From Holophagae bacterium (GTDB taxonomy: Bacteria; Acidobacteriota; Thermoanaerobaculia; Thermoanaerobaculales; Sulfomarinibacteraceae): a stretch of DNA of 14,312 nt. Shown here one piece after another: positions 103 to 13,207 of the stretch. The stretch is from NCBI GenBank assembly GCA_030609785.1, contig JAUWTC010000015.1:1-14312 (forward strand), read 5' to 3'. The notes beneath the pieces are model-generated. The model was not told where the DNA came from, did no database searches, and saw only the letters and a list, made by a program, of their open reading frames with translations. How positions within the stretch are numbered: the stretch's first letter is position 1; every line of letters starts with the position of its first letter. Made by a program: the position numbers and the translations under genes.

Positions 103-1056
103 ATGATGGCAGTCACGAACCCCCTCTCCGAATTGATTGAACGACAGGGCCGGGTCATCTTTGACGGGGGATTGGCCACCGCTCTTGAGGAGCGGGGCCA
201 CAACCTCGACGACCCGCTGTGGTCGGCACGGCTGCTGATTGAAGAGCCCGGGGCGATTCGCAGAGTACACACGGACTACCTCGAGGCCGGGGCGGACTGC
301 ATCACGACCTCGAGTTACCAGGCCACCCTTCACGGCTTCTCCGCCAGAGGTCTCAGCAAGAATGAGGGCCGCGATCTTCTTCGATTGTCGACTGACCTCG
401 CTATTGAAGCCCGAGACTCATTCTGGAGCCACCCGCCAAACCGCCGCGGCCGCCTTCGTCCACTGGTGGCAGCGAGCATCGGTCCCTACGGCGCCTTTCT
501 CGCAGACGGGTCCGAGTACACCGGGGCCTATAAAATCAATGATGCCGCGTTGTACGAATTTCACCGGGAACGCTGGCCGGTGCTGGCTGAAAGTCCCGCC
601 GACCTTCTTGCCTGCGAGACCCTGCCGTCCCTCCGGGAGGCCCGAGTCCTGCTCCAACTCCTCAGAGAAACACCGGGACGGTGGGCCTGGCTGAGCTTCA
701 GCTGCCGGGACGGCCTCCATCTCTCGGATGGAACGCCATTCGTCGATGCGGTCCGAGCCTGTTCCCCGACACCCGGCGTCGCCGCCGTCGGCGTCAACTG
801 CACGGCCCCGCGTTTTATCTCGTCCTTGATTGAACAGGCGCGCGGCGCCACTGACCTGCCCATCATCGTCTATCCCAATTCCGGAGAGGTCTACGACCCC
901 GCAGTCAAACGTTGGCGTTCCGGAGGACATGTCGGCGCCTGGGTGGATGACGCTGCACGATGGAGCGACCTCGGCGCCGCTGCTCTCGGAGGATGCTGCC
1001 GTGTCGGACCCAAGACCATCGCCGAGTTGAGGCATCGGCTTCTACCAGCCACCTGA
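103..1056 (+). CDS. mmuM: Homocysteine S-methyltransferase (MmuM-like)
   Basis: This is predicted to be a cytosolic zinc enzyme that transfers a methyl group, in MmuM from S-methylmethionine or SAM, to homocysteine to give methionine. The 317-residue protein is a single S-methyl-transferase barrel of normal family length. The N-terminal strand FDGGLATALEERG and the ITTSSYQA segment are typical of the family. The three zinc ligands are present: Cys233 in GVNCTAP and the pair Cys298-Cys299 in GGCCRVGP near the C-terminus. Two ATG codons are adjacent at 103 and 106, and neither has a clear Shine-Dalgarno. A weak box, TAAGAC at 91-96, ends six bases before ATG 103, but it lacks the final T of a -10 element. 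The gatE gene follows from its own promoter. The link to gatE looks positional rather than functional. The methyl donor cannot be told from sequence. Confidence 0.9.
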   Translation: MMAVTNPLSELIERQGRVIFDGGLATALEERGHNLDDPLWSARLLIEEPGAIRRVHTDYLEAGADCITTSSYQATLHGFSARGLSKNEGRDLLRLSTDLAIEARDSFWSHPPNRRGRLRPLVAASIGPYGAFLADGSEYTGAYKINDAALYEFHRERWPVLAESPADLLACETLPSLREARVLLQLLRETPGRWAWLSFSCRDGLHLSDGTPFVDAVRACSPTPGVAAVGVNCTAPRFISSLIEQARGATDLPIIVYPNSGEVYDPAVKRWRSGGHVGAWVDDAARWSDLGAAALGGCCRVGPKTIAELRHRLLPAT

Positions 1057-1089
1057 CGCTGCCGGTTGGCTCTCGCGGGGTACTCACCC

Positions 1090-1098
1090 TGCTATAGT
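1090..1098 (+). promoter_or_regulatory. Extended -10 promoter of gatE
   Basis: TGCTATAGT is a TGn extended -10 element with box TATAGT at 1093-1098. TTGGCT at 1066-1071 lies 21 bp upstream, too far for a standard -35, so the extended -10 would carry the activity. Initiation near 1105 would leave a leader of about 30 bases before GTG 1135, with AGGGGG at 1124-1129 as Shine-Dalgarno, five bases from the start. Confidence 0.5.
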
Positions 1099-1134
1099 CC
1101 CCCCGGTCCTGAGATCGGACTCCAGGGGGTGGCT

Positions 1135-3093
1135 GTGCAGCAGACGATCGACTATGACGAGGTCGGATTCAAGGCCGGGCTCGAGGTTCACCAGCAACTC
1201 CTGACGGCGACCAAGTTGTTCTGCAGATGCCCCGCCGGACTCTATACCAAAGAGCATGACGGCATCGTTTTGCGCCACATGCGCCCGACCCTCTCGGAAC
1301 TGGGCGAGTACGACGGCACCGCCCTGATGGAGTTCAAGACCAAGAAGAACATCGTCTACCTGCTCCACGAGTCCAATACCTGTACGTACGAGATGGACGA
1401 CACACCGCCGTTCCTGATCAATCCGGAAGGCGTCGACGTTGCGATCGAGCAGTGCCTGATGCTGGGGTGCGACATCGTCGACGAGTTGCACATCGCCCGC
1501 AAACAGTACCTCGACGGATCGATCCCTACCGGCTTTCAGCGCACGGCAATCGTCGGTGTCAACGGGCTGCTGCCCTTCCGCGGACGACAACTTTCGATCA
1601 CCCAGGTCAGCGTCGAGGAGGACTCCTGCCGGGAGGTCTCCGACACCGGCCACCTGATCGTCTGGCGAACCGACCGCCTCGGCATGCCTTTGATCGAGAC
1701 CGTCACCGGCCCAGACCTGCGGACGCCTGACGAGGTTGAGGAAGCCATCCTCCTGATCGGCAGAGTCTGCCGCTCCACCGGTCACGTCCGCGTCGGCATG
1801 GGCGCCAGCCGCCAGGACGTCAACGTCTCCGTCCGGGGCGGCACCCGCATCGAGATCAAGGGAGTCCCCAAGGCCGGTTGGGCGCCCGCACTGGTACACG
1901 GCGAGGCTGTCCGCCAGGTCAACCTCCTCAAACTCAGAGACGAACTGCATCAACGGGGCTTCACCTCGCCCGAAACGATCGTCGTCGATCACCGCGACGT
2001 GACGTCAATCCTGGCCTCGTCGGCGATCGACCACTTCCGAGCCGACGCGTGGCAGCGATGGCTCGAGGCCACCGGACGCCGCCCGGGTTTCGAGTGCGGA
2101 ACCGGTCCTTTTTCGGTCCGAGGCATTCGTATCGCCGGACTGAAGGGCACGCTGGAGCACCCGACCCAGCCTGATCTGACCTTCGTTCACGAGCTCCAGG
2201 GTCGGATCCGGGTGATCGCCGGGCTCGACCAGGCTCCAATCCTGGTCCACGACGGCTCGTGGCCCGGTACCGCGGCCGAGCTCAAGGCCGTGCGCTCGGA
2301 GTTGGACTGTGAACCTGAGGATGCTCTCATTGTCGTCTGGGGCGCCGAGGGCGACACCCTGACGGCCGTCGAGGAGATCCGCCTGCGATTCGTCGATGCC
2401 CTCCACGGGGTGCCTTCCGAAACCCGGCAGCCCTTCGTCGACGGGCATACCAACTTCGAGCGAATCCTGCCGGGTCCCGACCGCATGTACCCCGATACCG
2501 ACAGCCCACCGCTGGCCTTGGACCGAGAGCGGGTCCAGGCGCTCGAAGGGGTACTGCCCGAGGCTCCCTGGATTCGCGAAGCACGCTATGCGGAGGCAGG
2601 CCTCCCGCTGGTGACTATTCACTTCCTGATTCGTCGGGGTGGTGCACGCCTGGTCGATCTGGTGGCCGACGAGGCCGACGCCGACGTACGGGAGGCCGGG
2701 TTCTTCTTTGGAGAGCGAATCAAGGGACTCCGTCGAAAAGGAGTCGCAGTCGACGCCATCACCGACGACCAGTGGATCTCGTGGTTCACGATCTTGCGAA
2801 AACACCCGGTCGCAGCCGAGGACCACAACCAGGCTATCCGGTGGATGGCCCGGCGGCCGGGCCGGGATCCTCAGGACTACCTCAATGCCGTGGGCATTGG
2901 TGTGTTCCCGGATCATTGGCTCCAAGACGTGACCCGGAAGGCAACGAACCGCCAACCGGATCATCCCGACGGCACGGCCGACCAGCAGCACCGCTTCCTG
3001 ATGGGATTGTCGATGAAGGGTCTGCGCGGCCGAGTACCGGCCCGCGACGTGCTGCAGGCGATTGCGAAAGAAACCGAACGAGAAGGCAATTGA
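1135..3093 (+). CDS. gatE: Archaeal-type Glu-tRNA(Gln) amidotransferase subunit E
   Basis: GatE is the tRNA-binding kinase and amidotransferase subunit of GatDE. It phosphorylates Glu on misacylated Glu-tRNA(Gln) and replaces the phosphate with ammonia delivered from GatD. The start chosen is GTG 1135 (652 residues), because homology begins with DYDEVGFKAGLEVHQQL and AGGGGG sits five bases upstream. A TTG at 1066 would add 23 unrelated residues lying over the promoter. GatB/GatE-fold motifs are clear: GLEVHQQL (15-22), LDGSIPTGFQRT (126-137), VEED (160-163) and QDVNVSVRGGTRIEIKG (227-243). LPGPDRMYPDTDSPP (about 445-459) closes the GAD-type insertion that separates GatE from bacterial GatB. 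The C-terminal 190 or so residues resemble the YqeY-like tRNA-binding tail. The last codons (EREGN, TGA) are repeat-derived. The length is slightly above that of archaeal GatE. GatB is unlikely because GatD follows. Confidence 0.93.
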   Translation: MQQTIDYDEVGFKAGLEVHQQLLTATKLFCRCPAGLYTKEHDGIVLRHMRPTLSELGEYDGTALMEFKTKKNIVYLLHESNTCTYEMDDTPPFLINPEGVDVAIEQCLMLGCDIVDELHIARKQYLDGSIPTGFQRTAIVGVNGLLPFRGRQLSITQVSVEEDSCREVSDTGHLIVWRTDRLGMPLIETVTGPDLRTPDEVEEAILLIGRVCRSTGHVRVGMGASRQDVNVSVRGGTRIEIKGVPKAGWAPALVHGEAVRQVNLLKLRDELHQRGFTSPETIVVDHRDVTSILASSAIDHFRADAWQRWLEATGRRPGFECGTGPFSVRGIRIAGLKGTLEHPTQPDLTFVHELQGRIRVIAGLDQAPILVHDGSWPGTAAELKAVRSELDCEPEDALIVVWGAEGDTLTAVEEIRLRFVDALHGVPSETRQPFVDGHTNFERILPGPDRMYPDTDSPPLALDRERVQALEGVLPEAPWIREARYAEAGLPLVTIHFLIRRGGARLVDLVADEADADVREAGFFFGERIKGLRRKGVAVDAITDDQWISWFTILRKHPVAAEDHNQAIRWMARRPGRDPQDYLNAVGIGVFPDHWLQDVTRKATNRQPDHPDGTADQQHRFLMGLSMKGLRGRVPARDVLQAIAKETEREGN

Positions 3094-3170
3094 ACCGCAA
3101 AGACGCAAAGATCGCGAAGAAACGCAAAGAGGGATGAAATTGGAACTCATTTCACGAAGACGAAGAGAAG
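3076..3170 (+). repeat. Dispersed AATTGAACCGC repeat, copy A
   Basis: The conserved head, GAACGAGAAG followed by GCAATTGAACCGC, spans 3076-3098 and contains the gatE stop codon inside AATTGA. It is followed by degenerate short iterations (AAGACGCAAAG, AACGCAAAGAG), then a second module, CACGAAGACGAAGAG, at about 3153-3167. The copy fills most of the gap between gatE and gatD. Related copies lie at 4721-4820 (-), 7807-7869 (+) and 14288-14312 (+). Confidence 0.75.
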
Positions 3171-3236
3171 GTCGAGTATTGAGTTTCTGCTCTGCACAAG
3201 GAGATTGCCTCGAAGATCGAAGCAGTTGGAGGACAT

Positions 3237-4634
3237 GTGACGCATAAAGACAAAGACCCTCTCAAAGGCTACCGCGGGCCGGCCCGCGAGACTCTGGCTC
3301 GGTTCGAGGTCAAAGTGTGGTCCGATGTCAGGTGCACCAACAGCGCGGGCAGCGTCTTCGAAGGCGTCATCCTGCCGCGTTCGGAGACCTTCGATGATCT
3401 CCATATCGTCATAAAACTCAAGACCGGCTACAACGTCGGCGTTCATCACGATCGGGTCGTATCGATCGAAGAAGTCGGCTACAAGGAAGCGGTCTACAAG
3501 ATCCCCGAGCAGGAGTTCCCGCGGCGGCCCGATCTGCCCAAGGTAACGCTCCTGGGAACCGGCGGCACGATCGCCTCCCGCCTGGACTACCGCACCGGCG
3601 CGGTCATCCCTGCCTTCACACCGGGCGAGCTCTATGGCGCCGTTCCGGAACTGGCCGATCTCTGCAATTTGACGACCCGCAAGATCTTTGGCGTCTTCTC
3701 TGAGAACATGGGTTGGAAGGAGTACGTCACGCTGGCCGAAGAGATCGGGAAGGAGATCGAAGCCGGCGCCGACGGTATCGTCATTGGGCACGGTACCGAC
3801 ACAATGGGCCACACAGCGGCAATCCTCTCGTTCATGGTGCAGGACTCGCCCGTACCGATCGTGGTCGTCGGGTCCCAACGATCCTCGGACCGCCCATCGT
3901 CGGACGCAGCCCTCAACCTGATCCACGCGGTCAAGACCGCCGGCGAGGGTGACATCGCCGAGGTACAAATCTGCATGTTCGGGCCGACCTCTGACAGGTA
4001 CGGCCTGCTGCATCGGGGAACGCGCTGCCGCAAGATGCACTCGTCTTACCGTTCGACCTTCCGCACACTCAGCGACATCCCGCTGGCCGTCGTCAGCCGC
4101 GAAGGCTTCAGACCGCTGAACACCGAAACCCTCCGCCGGGACCCATCCAGGAAGGTTCAGATCGACACCGCTTACGACGATCGCGTGACGATCCTCTACT
4201 ATTACCCGGGCATGGACCCCGATCTGGTAGATGCCCTCGTTGAAAAGGGTTACCACGGCATCGTAATCGCCGGCACGGGGCTGGGCCACGTCAACACCCC
4301 CCTCTATCCCGCCCTGGACCGGGCGATCAAGGCAGGCGTGCATGTTGTGATGACCGTGCAGACCCTGTGGGGCTACGCCCAGATGTACGTCTATGACACC
4401 GGGCGGGACCTCCTGGACATCGGGGTCGTTCCCCTGGACAACATGCTGCCCGAAACCGCCTTGATGAAGTTGGGCTGGGTACTCGGCCACACTCGGGACC
4501 ATGATGAGGTCCTGACGATGATGCGGACGACGATCAACCACGAGATCACACCCCGGGAACCCCACAACGGCTACCTGATTCTCCAGGGCGGTTTGCCGGA
4601 GGTTGAAAGCTGGATTACGAGTCAGTGGAAATAG
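3237..4634 (+). CDS. gatD: Archaeal-type Glu-tRNA(Gln) amidotransferase subunit D
   Basis: GatD is the glutaminase subunit of GatDE. An L-asparaginase-like fold hydrolyses an amide donor and passes ammonia to GatE. The 465-residue protein has an N-terminal extension of about 100 residues with a small beta-barrel region (VKVWSDVRCTNSAGSVFEG, then NVGVHHDRVVSIEEVG), as in archaeal GatD and absent from plain asparaginases. The asparaginase core follows. The catalytic residues are visible: Thr111 in GTGGTIAS (107-114), Thr187-Asp188 in GHGTDTM (184-190), and a probable catalytic Lys at about 266 in CRKMHSS. The start is GTG 3237. GGAGGA at 3228-3233 is a strong but rather close Shine-Dalgarno. 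The gene lies 143 bp after gatE, a gap mostly filled by a dispersed repeat. The N-terminal domain and the gatE neighbour argue against a free type I asparaginase. Confidence 0.93.
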   Translation: MTHKDKDPLKGYRGPARETLARFEVKVWSDVRCTNSAGSVFEGVILPRSETFDDLHIVIKLKTGYNVGVHHDRVVSIEEVGYKEAVYKIPEQEFPRRPDLPKVTLLGTGGTIASRLDYRTGAVIPAFTPGELYGAVPELADLCNLTTRKIFGVFSENMGWKEYVTLAEEIGKEIEAGADGIVIGHGTDTMGHTAAILSFMVQDSPVPIVVVGSQRSSDRPSSDAALNLIHAVKTAGEGDIAEVQICMFGPTSDRYGLLHRGTRCRKMHSSYRSTFRTLSDIPLAVVSREGFRPLNTETLRRDPSRKVQIDTAYDDRVTILYYYPGMDPDLVDALVEKGYHGIVIAGTGLGHVNTPLYPALDRAIKAGVHVVMTVQTLWGYAQMYVYDTGRDLLDIGVVPLDNMLPETALMKLGWVLGHTRDHDEVLTMMRTTINHEITPREPHNGYLILQGGLPEVESWITSQWK

Positions 4635-4655
4635 CGTATCGATACTCGATACTGG

Positions 4656-4692
4656 GCAATTCGTCGGACGAATTGCATGCCGGCTTCGCCGG
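4656..4692. repeat. Tandem palindromes after gatD
   Basis: GCAATTCGTC (4656-4665) and GACGAATTGC (4667-4676) form a perfect 10-bp inverted repeat around one central base. CCGGC-TTC-GCCGG follows at 4680-4692. Neither has a T tract on either strand, so a classical intrinsic terminator is unlikely. The pair sits between the convergent gatD and glycosidase genes, next to repeat copy B, and may act as a Rho-independent processing or termination structure or be part of a REP-like element. Confidence 0.6.
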
Positions 4693-4720
4693 GGGGTGGG
4701 AGCCTGGGGTTCCCTGCTTG

Positions 4721-4820
4721 AATTCCAACTCTTCGTGTTCTTCGTGTCTTCGTGGTTAATATTCCCTTGGCGTTACCTTTGCGCTCTTTGCGTCTTGGCG
4801 GTTCAATTTTCTTCTCGTTC
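4721..4820 (-). repeat. Dispersed AATTGAACCGC repeat, copy B
   Basis: This is the fullest copy in the window. Read on the minus strand from 4820, the head GAACGAGAAG-AAAATTGAACCGC is followed by CCAAGACGCAAAGAGCGC and AACGCCAAGG. A second module, CCACGAAGACACGAAGAAC, follows and the copy ends near TTGGAATT. The head supplies the final residues and TGA stop of the glycosidase-like protein, in the same reading frame that copy A uses in gatE. Confidence 0.78.
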
Positions 4821-6575
4821 GACCCCTCGTGGTTCCGCCTCTGCTGGATTGGGGAAAAAACTCTCAAACGACGGCATCGGTCCCCAGCTTTTCGGGGTTC
4901 GCCCCCCACTGTCCCTCGGACCACCCCGATCACCCCCGGTCAGCACCAACTCGGCATAATGCGACAGCACCCAGCCAGCCGGTGACGTCACCCGACACCG
5001 GTACTCGCCGGTGTCGGCGGCATCGGCCTCGTGGACCGTCAAGACGCCCGTATCGAGACCTGAAAATCGCGTATCATCTCTGATTTCCAACCCGTTGTGG
5101 AACCACGAATACTCCAGATCTCCCGCCCCCTCGGCAACCACCCGAAAGACGGCATCCCTGCCCAGGTCGACTACCTCTGCCAGGGGTTGGAGGACGATCT
5201 CCGGCAAGGAACGCCACCCGCTGACGACGCTGGCGCGAAGAGGCGACCCAAGGCCGCGGCCGTCTCCCCTGGCCATCCTTACCGAAAGGTTGTGGCGCAA
5301 ATTTTGGTAATCCCAACCGACCGGCGGCGGCCGCAAAGCCAGCTGAATGTCCTCGACCGCACCCGGCGCCACATCCCCACCCTGGGCCGCCAGCCCGCCC
5401 TCGAAGTGCCAGTCCACCGGAAGTCCCTCGACACTGACCGAAAGGCCATCGTCCTGTCGCCATGTCGTCGTGCCCTCATTGACGACCCGGACCACGACCG
5501 GATTCCACTGGCCGGGCGTCATAACCGGGTCGGATGTCCAGGAAAGGACCCGGGCATCGTCGACCACGGCCTCTCGAATGAAGTCCTCGTAGTATTCGAA
5601 GGCCAACTTTTGCTCCAGGCCGGGAGGCGGACCAACAACCCCGAAGGAAATGTCCGGAAAACCCGGATCATCAACCAGCTGATAGAAGAACAGACGATCG
5701 ATCCATTTCGCATCGCCATCGGTCGGGAACCACTCCGACAGCAGGTCCTCGTAGAAGACTGCCTGGGCCCAGGGACCGCCAGTGTCCGTCTCCACGCCGG
5801 TTTCGGTCAACCAGAAGGGCCTCCCGAACCAACCGACGTCCCGGAGGACCTTTCTGACCGATGGCGGATCCCACGGATAGGACCCTCCTTCCTCCAACTT
5901 CCGTGTGACGTCAGCCGCTCCGACCCCTGAGGGATAAACGTGGTGTGTCACGACGTCCAACTCGGCTTGAGCTCCAACGACACAGGTTTGCATCCACCCA
6001 TCCCAGTCGGCACTACTGAGGTGGGCCAACTCTGGTCCACCGACCAAAGCCTGACCATCAGCAGCGTGGACGGCAACCGCACCACGGCGCAGGATCTGAT
6101 TCAGATATTCCCAGCGGGTCCCTTCCCAGAACCTATTCAGATTGGGCTCGTTCCACATGCCCCATGCCTCGACCCGCCCCCGGTATCGCGCCGCGGCGCG
6201 ATAGCAGATGTCCGACCAGTCGGTCGGGTGATCAGGCACTCCCGGGCCTTCGGCGCCTGACGTCGCCCATGCCGGCGTTCCCCCAATCGTGGCAAAGATC
6301 TTCAGATCTCGTTCTTCAGCCTCGGCAATCAGCAGATCGAAGCGAGCCCAATCGAAAACGTCCTGCTCCGGTTCGGCAAACGCCCAAATGAAATCAATGC
6401 GAATCCAGTCCACGCCCAGATCGGCCGCCAGGTCCAGCTGGCGGTCATCCGGGATATGGACAGCGATGCCAAACGGTTCTGCCATGATGCCTGCGGCGAT
6501 GAGCACAAACCCAAGAACCACCGCGATAACGGTTGACCATGAAAATTTCCAGATATCAATCAAGCGAGGACTCAT
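4803..6575 (-). CDS. Exported clan GH-A glycosidase-like protein with Ig-like domains
   Basis: This protein of about 590 residues has an N-terminal hydrophobic segment (about residues 9-31, VIAVVLGFVLIAAGIMA), a signal peptide or membrane anchor. A TIM-barrel module of clan GH-A type runs from about 35 to 335. Glu143 in WGMWNEPN is the likely acid/base and Glu258 in FWLTETG the likely nucleophile. Residues of about 340-450 (VVVRVVNEGTTTW) resemble a carbohydrate-enzyme-associated Ig-like fold. Residues of about 457-545 (YSWFHNG, then ADTGEYRCRV) form a bacterial Ig-like domain, and a Gly/Pro/Ser-rich tail follows. The substrate is unknown. GH39- or GH5-like enzymes are the nearest resemblance by motif. 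ATG 6575 is preferred to TTG 6578 because TAGAAT ends six bases before it and there is no Shine-Dalgarno. The last residues, EREEN, and the stop come from repeat copy B. The product probably acts outside the cytoplasm on cell-surface or environmental polysaccharide. Confidence 0.82.
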   Translation of the reverse strand: MSPRLIDIWKFSWSTVIAVVLGFVLIAAGIMAEPFGIAVHIPDDRQLDLAADLGVDWIRIDFIWAFAEPEQDVFDWARFDLLIAEAEERDLKIFATIGGTPAWATSGAEGPGVPDHPTDWSDICYRAAARYRGRVEAWGMWNEPNLNRFWEGTRWEYLNQILRRGAVAVHAADGQALVGGPELAHLSSADWDGWMQTCVVGAQAELDVVTHHVYPSGVGAADVTRKLEEGGSYPWDPPSVRKVLRDVGWFGRPFWLTETGVETDTGGPWAQAVFYEDLLSEWFPTDGDAKWIDRLFFYQLVDDPGFPDISFGVVGPPPGLEQKLAFEYYEDFIREAVVDDARVLSWTSDPVMTPGQWNPVVVRVVNEGTTTWRQDDGLSVSVEGLPVDWHFEGGLAAQGGDVAPGAVEDIQLALRPPPVGWDYQNLRHNLSVRMARGDGRGLGSPLRASVVSGWRSLPEIVLQPLAEVVDLGRDAVFRVVAEGAGDLEYSWFHNGLEIRDDTRFSGLDTGVLTVHEADAADTGEYRCRVTSPAGWVLSHYAELVLTGGDRGGPRDSGGRTPKSWGPMPSFESFFPNPAEAEPRGVEREEN

Positions 6576-6581
6576 CAAGCG

Positions 6582-6587
6582 ATTCTA
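6582..6587 (-). promoter_or_regulatory. -10 box of the glycosidase gene (leaderless)
   Basis: On the minus strand, TAGAAT is followed by exactly six bases and then ATG 6575. Initiation about seven bases after the box would fall on the start codon, giving a leaderless mRNA. No recognisable -35 lies 16-18 bp upstream. The box directly abuts the rtcB box on the other strand. Confidence 0.5.
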
Positions 6588-6593
6588 TATGAT
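6588..6593 (+). promoter_or_regulatory. -10 box of rtcB (leaderless)
   Basis: TATGAT, one mismatch from TATAAT, is followed by exactly six bases (GACAAC) and then ATG 6600. There is no Shine-Dalgarno before the gene, which fits leaderless initiation. A -35 would lie inside the divergent coding sequence, and none is evident. Confidence 0.55.
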
Positions 6594-6599
6594 GACAAC

Positions 6600-7799
6600 A
6601 TGAAGTCTCGCGAGAGTCCCTGGAACGAGCGGACCGAAAGCGCCCCCTGGCGTCAGTGGGGTTCTGAACTGGAACCCCAGGCTGTCGCCCAGATGGCCAA
6701 CGCGTGCCGGCTGCCGATCTCGGTCTCCGGCGCCCTGATGCCCGATGCTCATTTGGGTTACGGCCTGCCGATCGGGGGGGTCCTGGCGACCGACAACGCC
6801 GTCATTCCCTATGCCGTCGGCGTCGACATCGCCTGCCGCATGCGCCTCAGCGTGCTGGACATGCCGGTCAGTGAACTCCGGGGCTCCCATAAGAGGCTGG
6901 AGCGCGTCCTGGAGGACGAGACCTCCTTCGGGATCGGCGCCGAGTTCCGGACGCCGAAAGATCACGAGGTGATGGACGACGACTGGAGCGTCAGTCCTGT
7001 AACCTCAAAAGTCCGTAGCAAAGCCCGGCGCCAGCTGGGCACCTCGGGGTCCGGCAATCACTTCGTCGAGTTCGGCGCCCTGACTCTCGAGAAACCTGAA
7101 CTGGGGCTCCAGCCGGGCACCTATCTGGCCCTGCTGTCTCACTCGGGCAGCCGGGGTCCGGGGAATATGGTCGCTCGCCATTATTCCACCCTGGCTCAAG
7201 ACCTCCACCCGGAGTTGCCCCGCGAACTCCGCCACCTGGCCTGGCTGGATCTGGACTCGGATCCCGGCGGGGAGTACTGGGCCGCGATGCAGTTGATGGG
7301 TCGTTTCGCTGCAGCAAATCATCAGCTGATCCACCACGCGATCATCAAGGCCCTCAGAGCCAAGGTCCGGGCGACCGTCGAGAATCACCACAACTTCGCG
7401 TGGGTCGAAGAGCACCAGGGTCGCACCGTCGTCGTACACCGAAAGGGAGCGACGCCGGCGTCCGACGATCAGTTGGGCGTCATCCCGGGATCGATGGCCA
7501 CTCCAGGGTTCGTCGTCCGGGGCAAGGGTTCAGCAGCATCGTTGATGAGCGCAGCCCATGGCGCCGGTCGGGTCATGTCCCGCAAGGCAGCCAAGAGATC
7601 GCTGACATGGTCGTCCGTCAAGAAAACCCTCGCCCGGAGTGGGGTCACCCTGCTCTCGGCAGGACTGGACGAGGCCCCCGACGTCTACAAGGACATTCAT
7701 CAGGTGATGGCCGCGCAGTCCGATCTGGTCAAGATTATCGCCCGCTTCGACCCCAAAATCGTCAAGATGGCGCCGCCGGGGGAGCGGCCGGAGGATTAG
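6600..7799 (+). CDS. rtcB: RtcB family RNA-splicing ligase
   Basis: RtcB joins RNA 2',3'-cyclic phosphate or 3'-phosphate ends to 5'-OH ends with GTP and Mn2+. It serves tRNA splicing in archaea and animals and RNA repair in bacteria. The 399-residue protein has the whole active-site set. PDAHLGYGLPIGGVLA is followed by GVDIACRM, with Cys79 as metal ligand. GSGNHFVE carries His154 and LSHSGSRGPGN carries His181. ENHHNFAWVEEH and HRKGATPA (280-287) follow. In IPGSMATPGFVV and SAAHGAGRVMSR, His320 matches the histidine that becomes guanylylated. The GVDIACRM variant, where many RtcBs have GVDIGCGM, suggests a divergent subgroup. ATG 6600 has no Shine-Dalgarno and lies six bases after TATGAT. 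The end is convergent with vapBC, across repeat copy C. No RtcA, archease or RtcR-like regulator is present here. Confidence 0.93.
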   Translation: MKSRESPWNERTESAPWRQWGSELEPQAVAQMANACRLPISVSGALMPDAHLGYGLPIGGVLATDNAVIPYAVGVDIACRMRLSVLDMPVSELRGSHKRLERVLEDETSFGIGAEFRTPKDHEVMDDDWSVSPVTSKVRSKARRQLGTSGSGNHFVEFGALTLEKPELGLQPGTYLALLSHSGSRGPGNMVARHYSTLAQDLHPELPRELRHLAWLDLDSDPGGEYWAAMQLMGRFAAANHQLIHHAIIKALRAKVRATVENHHNFAWVEEHQGRTVVVHRKGATPASDDQLGVIPGSMATPGFVVRGKGSAASLMSAAHGAGRVMSRKAAKRSLTWSSVKKTLARSGVTLLSAGLDEAPDVYKDIHQVMAAQSDLVKIIARFDPKIVKMAPPGERPED

Positions 7800-7915: not shown

Positions 7916-8344
7916 TCACACCAGCGGATTAATATGCTCGACCCCTGGGTAACGCGCAAAATCGTAGTCGGTGGAATACACGGGGCAACCGTATTCGATG
8001 GCCAGGGCGGCGATGTGGGCATCGGAACTGAGGTTGCCGGCAACACCTGTTCTCAGCAGCAGGTTCCGGAGGATCGGCCAGTGGTTTGGGCCGGGAGCAA
8101 CGGCTGTAACGAACGGCAGAGCCAGCCACTCGTCGATGTAGGCGAGCGCCTGCTCCGGTGTCAGCGGGTGTTCGAAAACGGTGCGCCGAGTCGTGATCCG
8201 GATGAAGGCGAGAACGACGATCCAGGGCAAGCCAACCTCCGTCGTCGAAGAGAACGTCCTCTCGATCCACTGACGTGCCGGCTCGTGCATCGGAACGTCG
8301 GAATTGACGGCGTAGATGAGGATGTTTGCGTCGAGCAGTATCAC
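7916..8344 (-). CDS. vapC: PIN-domain ribonuclease toxin VapC
   Basis: VapC toxins are Mg2+-dependent PIN-domain endoribonucleases that cut tRNA or rRNA and stop translation when freed from VapB. This 142-residue protein has the usual single-domain length. Acidic metal-site residues are visible: Asp5 in ILLDANIL, Asp108 in NLSSDAHIAALA, and Asp126/Asp128 in YSTDYDFARYPG. The mid-domain LPWIVVLAFIRITT has Phe where many PIN domains have Glu. That is typical of the VapC subgroup containing HWPIL and GNLSSDAH, so it need not mean loss of activity. The ATG overlaps the vapB stop by four bases (ATGA), indicating translational coupling. The RNA target cannot be predicted. Confidence 0.9.
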   Translation of the reverse strand: MILLDANILIYAVNSDVPMHEPARQWIERTFSSTTEVGLPWIVVLAFIRITTRRTVFEHPLTPEQALAYIDEWLALPFVTAVAPGPNHWPILRNLLLRTGVAGNLSSDAHIAALAIEYGCPVYSTDYDFARYPGVEHINPLV

Positions 8345-8610
8345 TTTCGCGCCTCGATCTTCCCCACCAGCCCTTCGTCCTCGAGGTCATCGGCAAGCCG
8401 CAATGCTCGGTCCAGATCGATGCCTGGTGCGACCCGCCCCAGCGCGGCCGGCTGCAGAGAATAGGACTTCGCCGCCGGAGGCGCCGCCTTCGCCCGAAGT
8501 CCGGCACGGATGGCCTCGTTGACCACCTGCTTCAGGCTCTCCTGCCTGGTGAAGGCCATCTCCTTGAGCGCGGCAGCAAGGTCATCGTCGAGTGTTAGCG
8601 TGGTTCTCAT
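8341..8610 (-). CDS. vapB: Ribbon-helix-helix antitoxin VapB
   Basis: This is the antitoxin and autorepressor partner of VapC. The 89-residue protein opens with MRTTLTLDDDLAAALKEMA, the beta strand and first helix of a ribbon-helix-helix DNA-binding domain, and a second helix runs to about residue 40 (SLKQVVNEAIRAGL). The linker is Ala/Pro-rich. The acidic tail (DLDRALRLADDLEDEGLVGKIEARK) is the likely toxin-binding segment. It overlaps vapC by four bases and is promoter-proximal, the standard order for VapBC. ATG 8610 has no Shine-Dalgarno and lies six bases after TATGAT, so the operon mRNA is predicted to be leaderless. Autoregulation is inferred from the palindromic site over the promoter. 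Confidence 0.88.
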   Translation of the reverse strand: MRTTLTLDDDLAAALKEMAFTRQESLKQVVNEAIRAGLRAKAAPPAAKSYSLQPAALGRVAPGIDLDRALRLADDLEDEGLVGKIEARK

Positions 8611-12838: not shown

Positions 12839-13207
12839 GCACCGCCAGGAATCACGAGCGCCCAATTCCTTCAATCGGTGCGTGCCATGCTTCGCATTTT
12901 CCCCCGGCAGCCCCCCCGATTCATGCACCGCCACGGAAAATGCGAGCTTGGCAACACCCGGCGAGCGCGTCGGCAAATGAGCCTCCCGGCTGGGTCGTAG
13001 GCCACCGAGGTCTTTTCCTCAAGGGGCGGCTCCCCTCCCGCTCCGAAAAGCGCTGCCCCTTGAGGAAACGCACCGAGCGGGGCCGCGCATGCGCGGCCCC
13101 GAAGGCCGGGGTTGGGCTTCAGGGACAGCGGCTACGACCGCGTCAGGAAACAGCGTCTGGGGCAGTTGGCGGCGTCAGCGCTGACGGCGTTGGCATACCA
13201 ACACCTC
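12839..13207. other. Gene-free, palindrome-rich segment
   Basis: This 369-bp gap between the convergent TPR and polyprenyl synthase genes has no convincing ORF but at least five inverted repeats. They are arms 12877-12902 with 12935-12958 (core CGCATTTTCC/GGAAAATGCG), and 13014-13030 with 13052-13068 (TTTCCTCAAGGGGC/GCCCCTTGAGGAAA plus three further pairs). There is also a perfect 22-bp palindrome at 13079-13100 (arm GGGGCCGCGCA). CGTCAGC-GCTGACG and GTTGG-CATA-CCAAC follow near 13173-13202. It could be a structured RNA, a bidirectional terminator zone or a cluster of REP-like repeats. No known RNA family was recognised. Confidence 0.6.

Follow-up and report, generated by a model that had tools for sequence, protein, structure and literature searches.

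An intact GatDE amidotransferase from a separate predicted subfamily in an acidobacterial genome with glutaminyl-tRNA synthetase

The amidotransferase GatDE is presented as exclusive to archaea, or as an archaeal signature protein, in the accessible sections of two 2022 reviews (PMC8762117, PMC9499178). In the same sections, its absence from bacteria is used in arguments about the last universal common ancestor, glutaminyl-tRNA synthetase (GlnRS) is said to be absent from all archaeal species, and archaeal GatDE is reported to read the A1-U72 pair of tRNA(Gln) (all PMC9499178); archaeal Gln-tRNA is described as always made by the indirect route (PMC8762117). According to the available part of another paper, bacteria with both Gln-tRNA routes were not known (PMC4206432). 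Bdellovibrio, Deinococcus and Thermus retain an amidotransferase, GatCAB, beside GlnRS and asparaginyl-tRNA synthetase (AsnRS), but in these bacteria the argued role of GatCAB is in Asn synthesis (same part of PMC4206432). No prior description of a bacterial GatDE or of an archaeal GlnRS was found in a search of the open-licence literature, as far as the accessible texts go. Here we describe a gatE-gatD pair in a stretch of 14,312 nucleotides (the window), which is positions 1 to 14,312 of contig JAUWTC010000015.1 (C46 in our numbering) of a Holophagae bacterium placed in Acidobacteriota (assembly GCA_030609785.1; 2.8 Mb, 457 contigs, 79.79% complete). The window holds a complete GatDE that, by its sequence, is assigned to a distinct subfamily, clade B, and its host has GlnRS. 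The two genes and the parts of GatE, whose limits we drew from the predicted model and alignments, are as follows.

1138..3093, + strand: gatE (clade B GatE), GTG start, 651 residues; TIGR00134 377.6 bits (cut-off 319.55)
GatE residues about 1-280 and 426-460: cradle/kinase part
GatE residues about 281-425: AspRS-like GAD insert
GatE residues about 475-570: helical part
GatE residues about 571-651: tail
3237..4634, + strand: gatD (glutaminase subunit), GTG start, 465 residues; TIGR02153 491.3 bits (cut-off 324)

Both genes are real, intact and full-length, and the pair is self-contained. GatD also matches NF003217 (490.9 bits, cut-off 310) and carries PF18195 (GatD_N) and both asparaginase domains. 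It matches the models of Type I/II asparaginases but differs from these enzymes in its GatD_N domain and its gatE partner. T111, T187, D188 and K266 of GatD, which we take to be the catalytic (amidase) tetrad, are retained in 102/102 aligned rows, from which open reading frames (ORFs) outside the length limits were excluded. An earlier note, made from the sequence alone, had called both subunits intact with catalytic residues present, and this was borne out. GatE shares the GatB/GatE catalytic domain PF02934 with GatCAB but lies far below the GatB cut-off (TIGR00133, 111 vs 314.8 bits). Its predicted model shows the AspRS-like GAD insert and the helical and tail part, so that all parts are present. 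PF02938 (GAD) was absent from GatE in the sequence search at E 0.001; a loss of tRNA-binding domains, suggested by this miss, was dropped since the fold is visible in the model. Among solved structures, 1zq1 and 2d6f contain the best relatives of GatE and GatD, in each case the chain of the same name, and the window proteins share with archaeal GatDE both subunits, the domain order, the predicted fold and the conserved core positions. They differ in falling in a separate clade, in motifs of their own, in a variable GatE tail and in a slightly longer GatD. The C end of GatD runs about 18 residues beyond the 1zq1 chain, and Q450, G451, P454 and E455, beyond the archaeal GatD end, are conserved at 95% or more in 81 bacterial rows and the window. 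The window GatE scores narrowly below the cut-off of NF003107 (454.9 vs 456 bits). Some other clade B rows are barely above it (463.4 and 467.3 bits), and because the scores lie so close to this cut-off, pipeline naming of clade B GatE may be uneven.

GatE trees were built from 147 rows (broad) and from 68 rows that we chose (careful). Rows of 560 residues or fewer were removed before the 147-row tree and the position statistics, which 78 of the 79 bacterial named loci entered. In both trees GatE splits into two clades, with support 100/100 in the 68-row tree. Clade A, sampled without Asgard, Thermoproteota and Haloarchaea, holds Thermococci (Pyrococcus), Methanocaldococcus, most Thermoplasmatota and a few unnamed rows. 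Clade B holds every bacterial row in the trees, the window GatE included, together with some Thermoplasmatota; the statement that bacteria are clade B covers the rows examined, six of which came from a model-based search near the host. When canonical archaeal GatE is taken as the root, the 36 bacterial rows fall together in a single group (90/77) next to the clade B rows of archaea, and the rows nearest to the window are bacterial. The proposal of the earlier note that this is an archaeal-type GatDE in a bacterium, with an origin shared with archaea, agrees with this placement. The branching order among the archaeal clade B rows was not settled by the 68-row tree, which fits a transfer from archaea to bacteria without proving its direction.

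The bacterial clade B rows come from a broad range of hosts. GatE was over cut-off in 20/59 genomes near the host (its own genome included) and in 23/199 genomes drawn evenly across Acidobacteriota. In the host's order 19/37 genomes have it (17 over cut-off, 2 in pieces), as do all three same-genus relatives, in one of them as two pieces. The spread of GatDE in Acidobacteriota is patchy, and the expectation that GatDE would be an exception in the phylum did not hold. A recent single transfer into the host genome is ruled out, given GatE in its genus, family, order and phylum. A scan of genome contigs gave at least 571 confirmed stretches, of which the best 80 were kept, 79 of them labelled bacterial and 1 archaeal. 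Within these best 80 the bacterial loci carry labels of more than 10 phyla: Acidobacteriota, Myxococcota or 'Deltaproteobacteria', Planctomycetota, Ignavibacteriota, Bacteroidota, Calditrichota, Aminicenantes, Cloacimonadota, Zixibacteria, Eisenbacteria, WOR-3, KSB1, Neomarinimicrobiota, Riflebacteria and others. Both peptide patterns of the scan were taken from bacterial rows, and one is a clade B motif; the scan therefore favours clade B and is unable to reveal clade A in bacteria. The samples overlap, since G059, G063, G067, G075 and G103 look like G002, G020, G044, G331 and G251 (identical coordinates). In 70/80 loci gatD lies within the fetched stretch, and some of the other 10 stretches stop just after gatE. 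Some of these bacterial proteins already carry the name GatE in their source annotations, so bacterial gatE genes are visible, though undiscussed in the literature searched.

The host would not need GatDE to obtain Gln-tRNA. It has GlnRS (TIGR00440, 716 bits, C324:1361-2944) and, upstream on the same contig, one glutamyl-tRNA synthetase (GluRS) of bacterial type that is cut by the contig edge (TIGR00464, 317 bits); these are the only two tRNA-synt_1c matches of the genome. GatB was over cut-off in 0/37 genomes of the host's order, in contrast to 21/22 others of the class, and GlnRS was over cut-off in 33/37 genomes of the order, namely 17/19 with GatE and 16/18 without. The host GlnRS and the GatB count together indicate that GatDE is not the required Gln-tRNA route of the host, and the prediction that this bacterium charges tRNA(Gln) through a non-discriminating GluRS and GatDE was not supported. 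The phylum was searched for GlnRS in 50 genomes (22 with GatE, 18 out of 21 that had given no match and 10 with GatB only), in which absence of GatB was read from cross-detection by the GatE model and not from a GatB search. GlnRS was over cut-off in 20 of the 22 further GatE-positive Acidobacteriota (one of them, G267, a GatE fragment), and the two others are 75% and 81% complete. It was over cut-off in 14/14 GatE-positive genomes without a GatB signal, in 14/18 with neither signal and in 1 of the 10 GatB-only genomes, a biased figure since these were picked by hand. Among named bacterial genomes with GatE, 39/49 had GlnRS over cut-off and five more had pieces of 91-419 bits; G069, G070, G082, G084 and G104 have GatE and no GlnRS piece over 90 bits. 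Bacterial genomes without GatE have GlnRS about as often; GatDE is therefore shown not to take the place of GlnRS, but no mutual dependence follows from these counts. As for Asn-tRNA, for which the earlier note had proposed a search for asnS, AsnRS was over cut-off in 54/59 genomes, two of the three same-genus relatives among them, and was not found over cut-off in the host assembly, which is 80% complete.

The same company was seen in archaea. We sampled 77 genomes from the phylum of G102 (labelled Thermoplasmata archaeon), the Thermoplasmatota. GatE was over cut-off in 68 of them, which by tree or BLAST divide into 56 with clade A only, 10 with clade B only and 2 with both. GlnRS was over cut-off in 9/12 genomes with clade B, in 2/56 with clade A only and in 6/9 without GatE over cut-off. 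The contrast between clade B and clade A-only genomes is strong (Fisher p = 2e-7, uncorrected for kinship), and clade A Thermoplasmatota, which mostly go without GlnRS, differ in this from the window host. A strict rule linking clade B to GlnRS is contradicted on both sides, by the clade B archaea G163, G180 and G184 without GlnRS over cut-off and by the clade A archaea G152 and G164 with a GlnRS of the archaeal group. In the GlnRS tree the 17 archaeal sequences lie on one side of a 100/100 branch and the 14 bacterial ones on the other. Of 16 distinct archaeal glnS loci, 9 have a tRNA(Gln) gene in the same stretch (8/12 of L152-L163, and 1 among L298, L299, L300 and L302), and all 13 tRNA(Gln) sequences from these loci have A1-U72, as read by eye. 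The loci with tRNA(Gln) near or flanking archaeal glnS are L153, L154, L155, L156, L157, L158, L161, L163 and L298. Because of this branch and of the A1-U72 tRNA(Gln) in the same stretch, the archaeal GlnRS is very likely resident. Contaminating GlnRS in archaeal metagenome-assembled genomes is unlikely on the same grounds.

The two genomes with both clades are G128 (L132/L133) and G137 (L134/L135), and L134 has the longest end branch within clade A. The clades share much of their sequence: at 63 GatE positions both have an identical letter with a frequency of 95% or more, including E16, H18, D126, E160, E161, E239 and K241. In eight rows of each clade, clade B has motifs around RHMRPTLSELGxYDGTALMEFKTKK, YExDDTPPF, RKQYLDGSIPTGFQRT and RMYPDTD, and the clade A counterparts are mostly DEEPP, RKxVxDGSN and RMYPETD.

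Our preferred explanation, which we hold with a confidence that is evenly balanced, is that clade B GatDE would be an old inter-domain acquisition and now an accessory amidotransferase acting on mischarged Glu-tRNA(Gln). Clade B would have arisen beside canonical GatDE in archaea, gone early to bacteria and there moved or been lost repeatedly. From the conserved active-site positions, GatD would free ammonia from glutamine, and GatE would phosphorylate the side-chain carboxylate with ATP and then amidate it. The likeliest substrate would be an acid-charged tRNA, foremost Glu-tRNA(Gln) from occasional mischarging; GatDE is not known to act on Asp-tRNA(Asn). GlnRS would be the host's main supply of Gln-tRNA, and GatDE would rescue or back up this route. 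The accessory role would retain the known reaction and all domains. In its favour are the identity and predicted fold of the pair, the conserved GatE core and GatD tetrad, the presence of GlnRS in the host and in most GatE genomes of its order, of the phylum and of named bacteria, the self-contained pair and the GatE trees. Several observations weigh against it. At 11 GatE positions the clades have different letters, each at 90% or more within its clade; 8 of these lie between positions 48 and 129 and are interspersed among conserved residues, and at all eight the GatE of 2d6f, which is outside the clade A rows used, has the clade A letter. Identity of the GatE tail is 20% within bacteria, 19% between clades and 35% within clade A. 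An ordinary Glu-tRNA(Gln) enzyme would have no need of such a motif shift and loose tail. In the clade B bacteria G009 (of the host's family) and G095, 4/4 tRNA(Gln) genes have U1-A72, unlike the pair of the canonical archaeal system. A single GluRS was seen in the host. As to the direction of transfer, 13% of the bootstrap trees unite the archaeal clade B rows in a single group.

These observations give some room to a second explanation, which we judge possible at rather less than an even chance: clade B GatDE would be neofunctionalised and amidate a substrate other than the bulk Glu-tRNA(Gln), for example a different charged tRNA or some small acid, with the glutaminase and kinase chemistry kept. 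The clade-wide motif change among conserved residues, the relaxed GatE tail, the company of GlnRS in both domains and the occurrence of both clades in G128 and G137 are consistent with it. However, the insert and the helical part are equally conserved in bacterial clade B and clade A (mean identities 41% and 42% for the insert, 29% and 29% for the helical part), and every GatE part is present in the predicted model. No extra Gln-like tRNA was found among the 39 tRNAs of G009 and the 42 of G095, in lists that are incomplete (several common tRNAs are missing for G009, and 150/177 candidates were scored in G095). The neighbouring genes offer no clue to a pathway either, since no gene other than gatD is common to more than 5/101 loci within the short flanks. 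If true, this explanation would mean a new amide-forming reaction in more than 10 bacterial phyla.

The accessory role also has to be set against GatDE as the host's main Gln-tRNA route through a non-discriminating GluRS. The enzyme is intact, and no GlnRS over cut-off was seen in 3/12 clade B Thermoplasmatota and 10/49 named bacteria, genomes of unstated completeness. Yet most GatE genomes have GlnRS, the host's own glnS contradicts this route, and the relatives G011 and G012 (99-100% complete) have GlnRS with neither GatE nor GatB; we consider it very unlikely. Equally improbable is a decaying remnant without a selected function, which the patchy distribution might suggest: identity of GatE residues 1-280 averages 68% between bacterial clade B rows, above the 54% within clade A, 206/465 GatD positions are conserved at 95% or more among bacterial rows, and the open frame of the window gatE is free of internal stops. 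An artefact of binning or assembly, with archaeal genes placed on a bacterial contig, can practically be dismissed despite the fragmented and incomplete assembly, given the bacterial nearest rows, GatE in all three same-genus relatives and a second, collinear assembly.

This second assembly, L022, comes from a separate record of a Thermoanaerobaculales bacterium (Acidobacteriota), the closest named relative among the best 80 of at least 571 stretches (GatE identity 93%). It is collinear with the window over 119-6831 at 82-89% identity and spans the boundary after gatD, so that there is no join artefact over 119-6831 and a chimeric contig is ruled out for this part. The earlier note had pointed to a possible chimeric join between archaeal and bacterial DNA within 4.6-8.8 kb; none was found up to 6831, and 6.8-8.8 kb lies outside the coverage of L022. 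The other features of the window are as follows.

103..1056, + strand: homocysteine S-methyltransferase, NF007020 378.5 bits, upstream of gatE
3075..3119: short dispersed repeat (AACCGCAAAGACGCAAAG type), overlapping the gatE end and reaching into the gatE-gatD gap
4777..4821: inverted partner of the repeat, downstream of gatD
6600-7799: RtcB-like protein, PF01139 298 bits
7834-7864: further partial copy of the repeat
7916-8610: VapC-like PIN toxin (TIGR00028) and overlapping ribbon-helix-helix gene
near gatDE: protein with immunoglobulin (Ig) and weak GH39 matches
near gatDE: small protein with a TPR match below its cut-off
near gatDE, same window: dnaE
near gatDE, same window: polyprenyl synthase

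The dnaE and vapBC genes reported earlier on this contig were recovered as DnaE and as the VapC-like PIN protein with its ribbon-helix-helix partner. The homocysteine S-methyltransferase is a neighbour in 5/101 loci, 2 of which are the window's own genome, and is confined to the genus as far as seen. The RtcB-like protein scores far below the NCBIfam RtcB-family cut-offs (172.5 vs 407 bits). The repeat arms flanking gatD are 45 nucleotides each and 89% complementary. A 4-base overlap joins the gatE and gatD ORFs of L017 and L023, and the repeat may therefore have split a coupled gatE-gatD pair. Near the polyprenyl synthase, 12843-13178 is 69% similar, in inverted orientation, to L020 1063-1408, which is the gap immediately before gatE in a genome of the same genus.

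GatDE has been explained as the archaeal means of making Gln-tRNA. With GlnRS in its company, this textbook reason for GatDE falls away, and no established job is left for a conserved enzyme. A wide bacterial branch of GatDE, joined with some Thermoplasmatota, alters the premise that the enzyme belongs to archaea only. A second correction comes from the archaea themselves, in that some Thermoplasmatota have GlnRS, many of them beside an archaeal-type tRNA(Gln).

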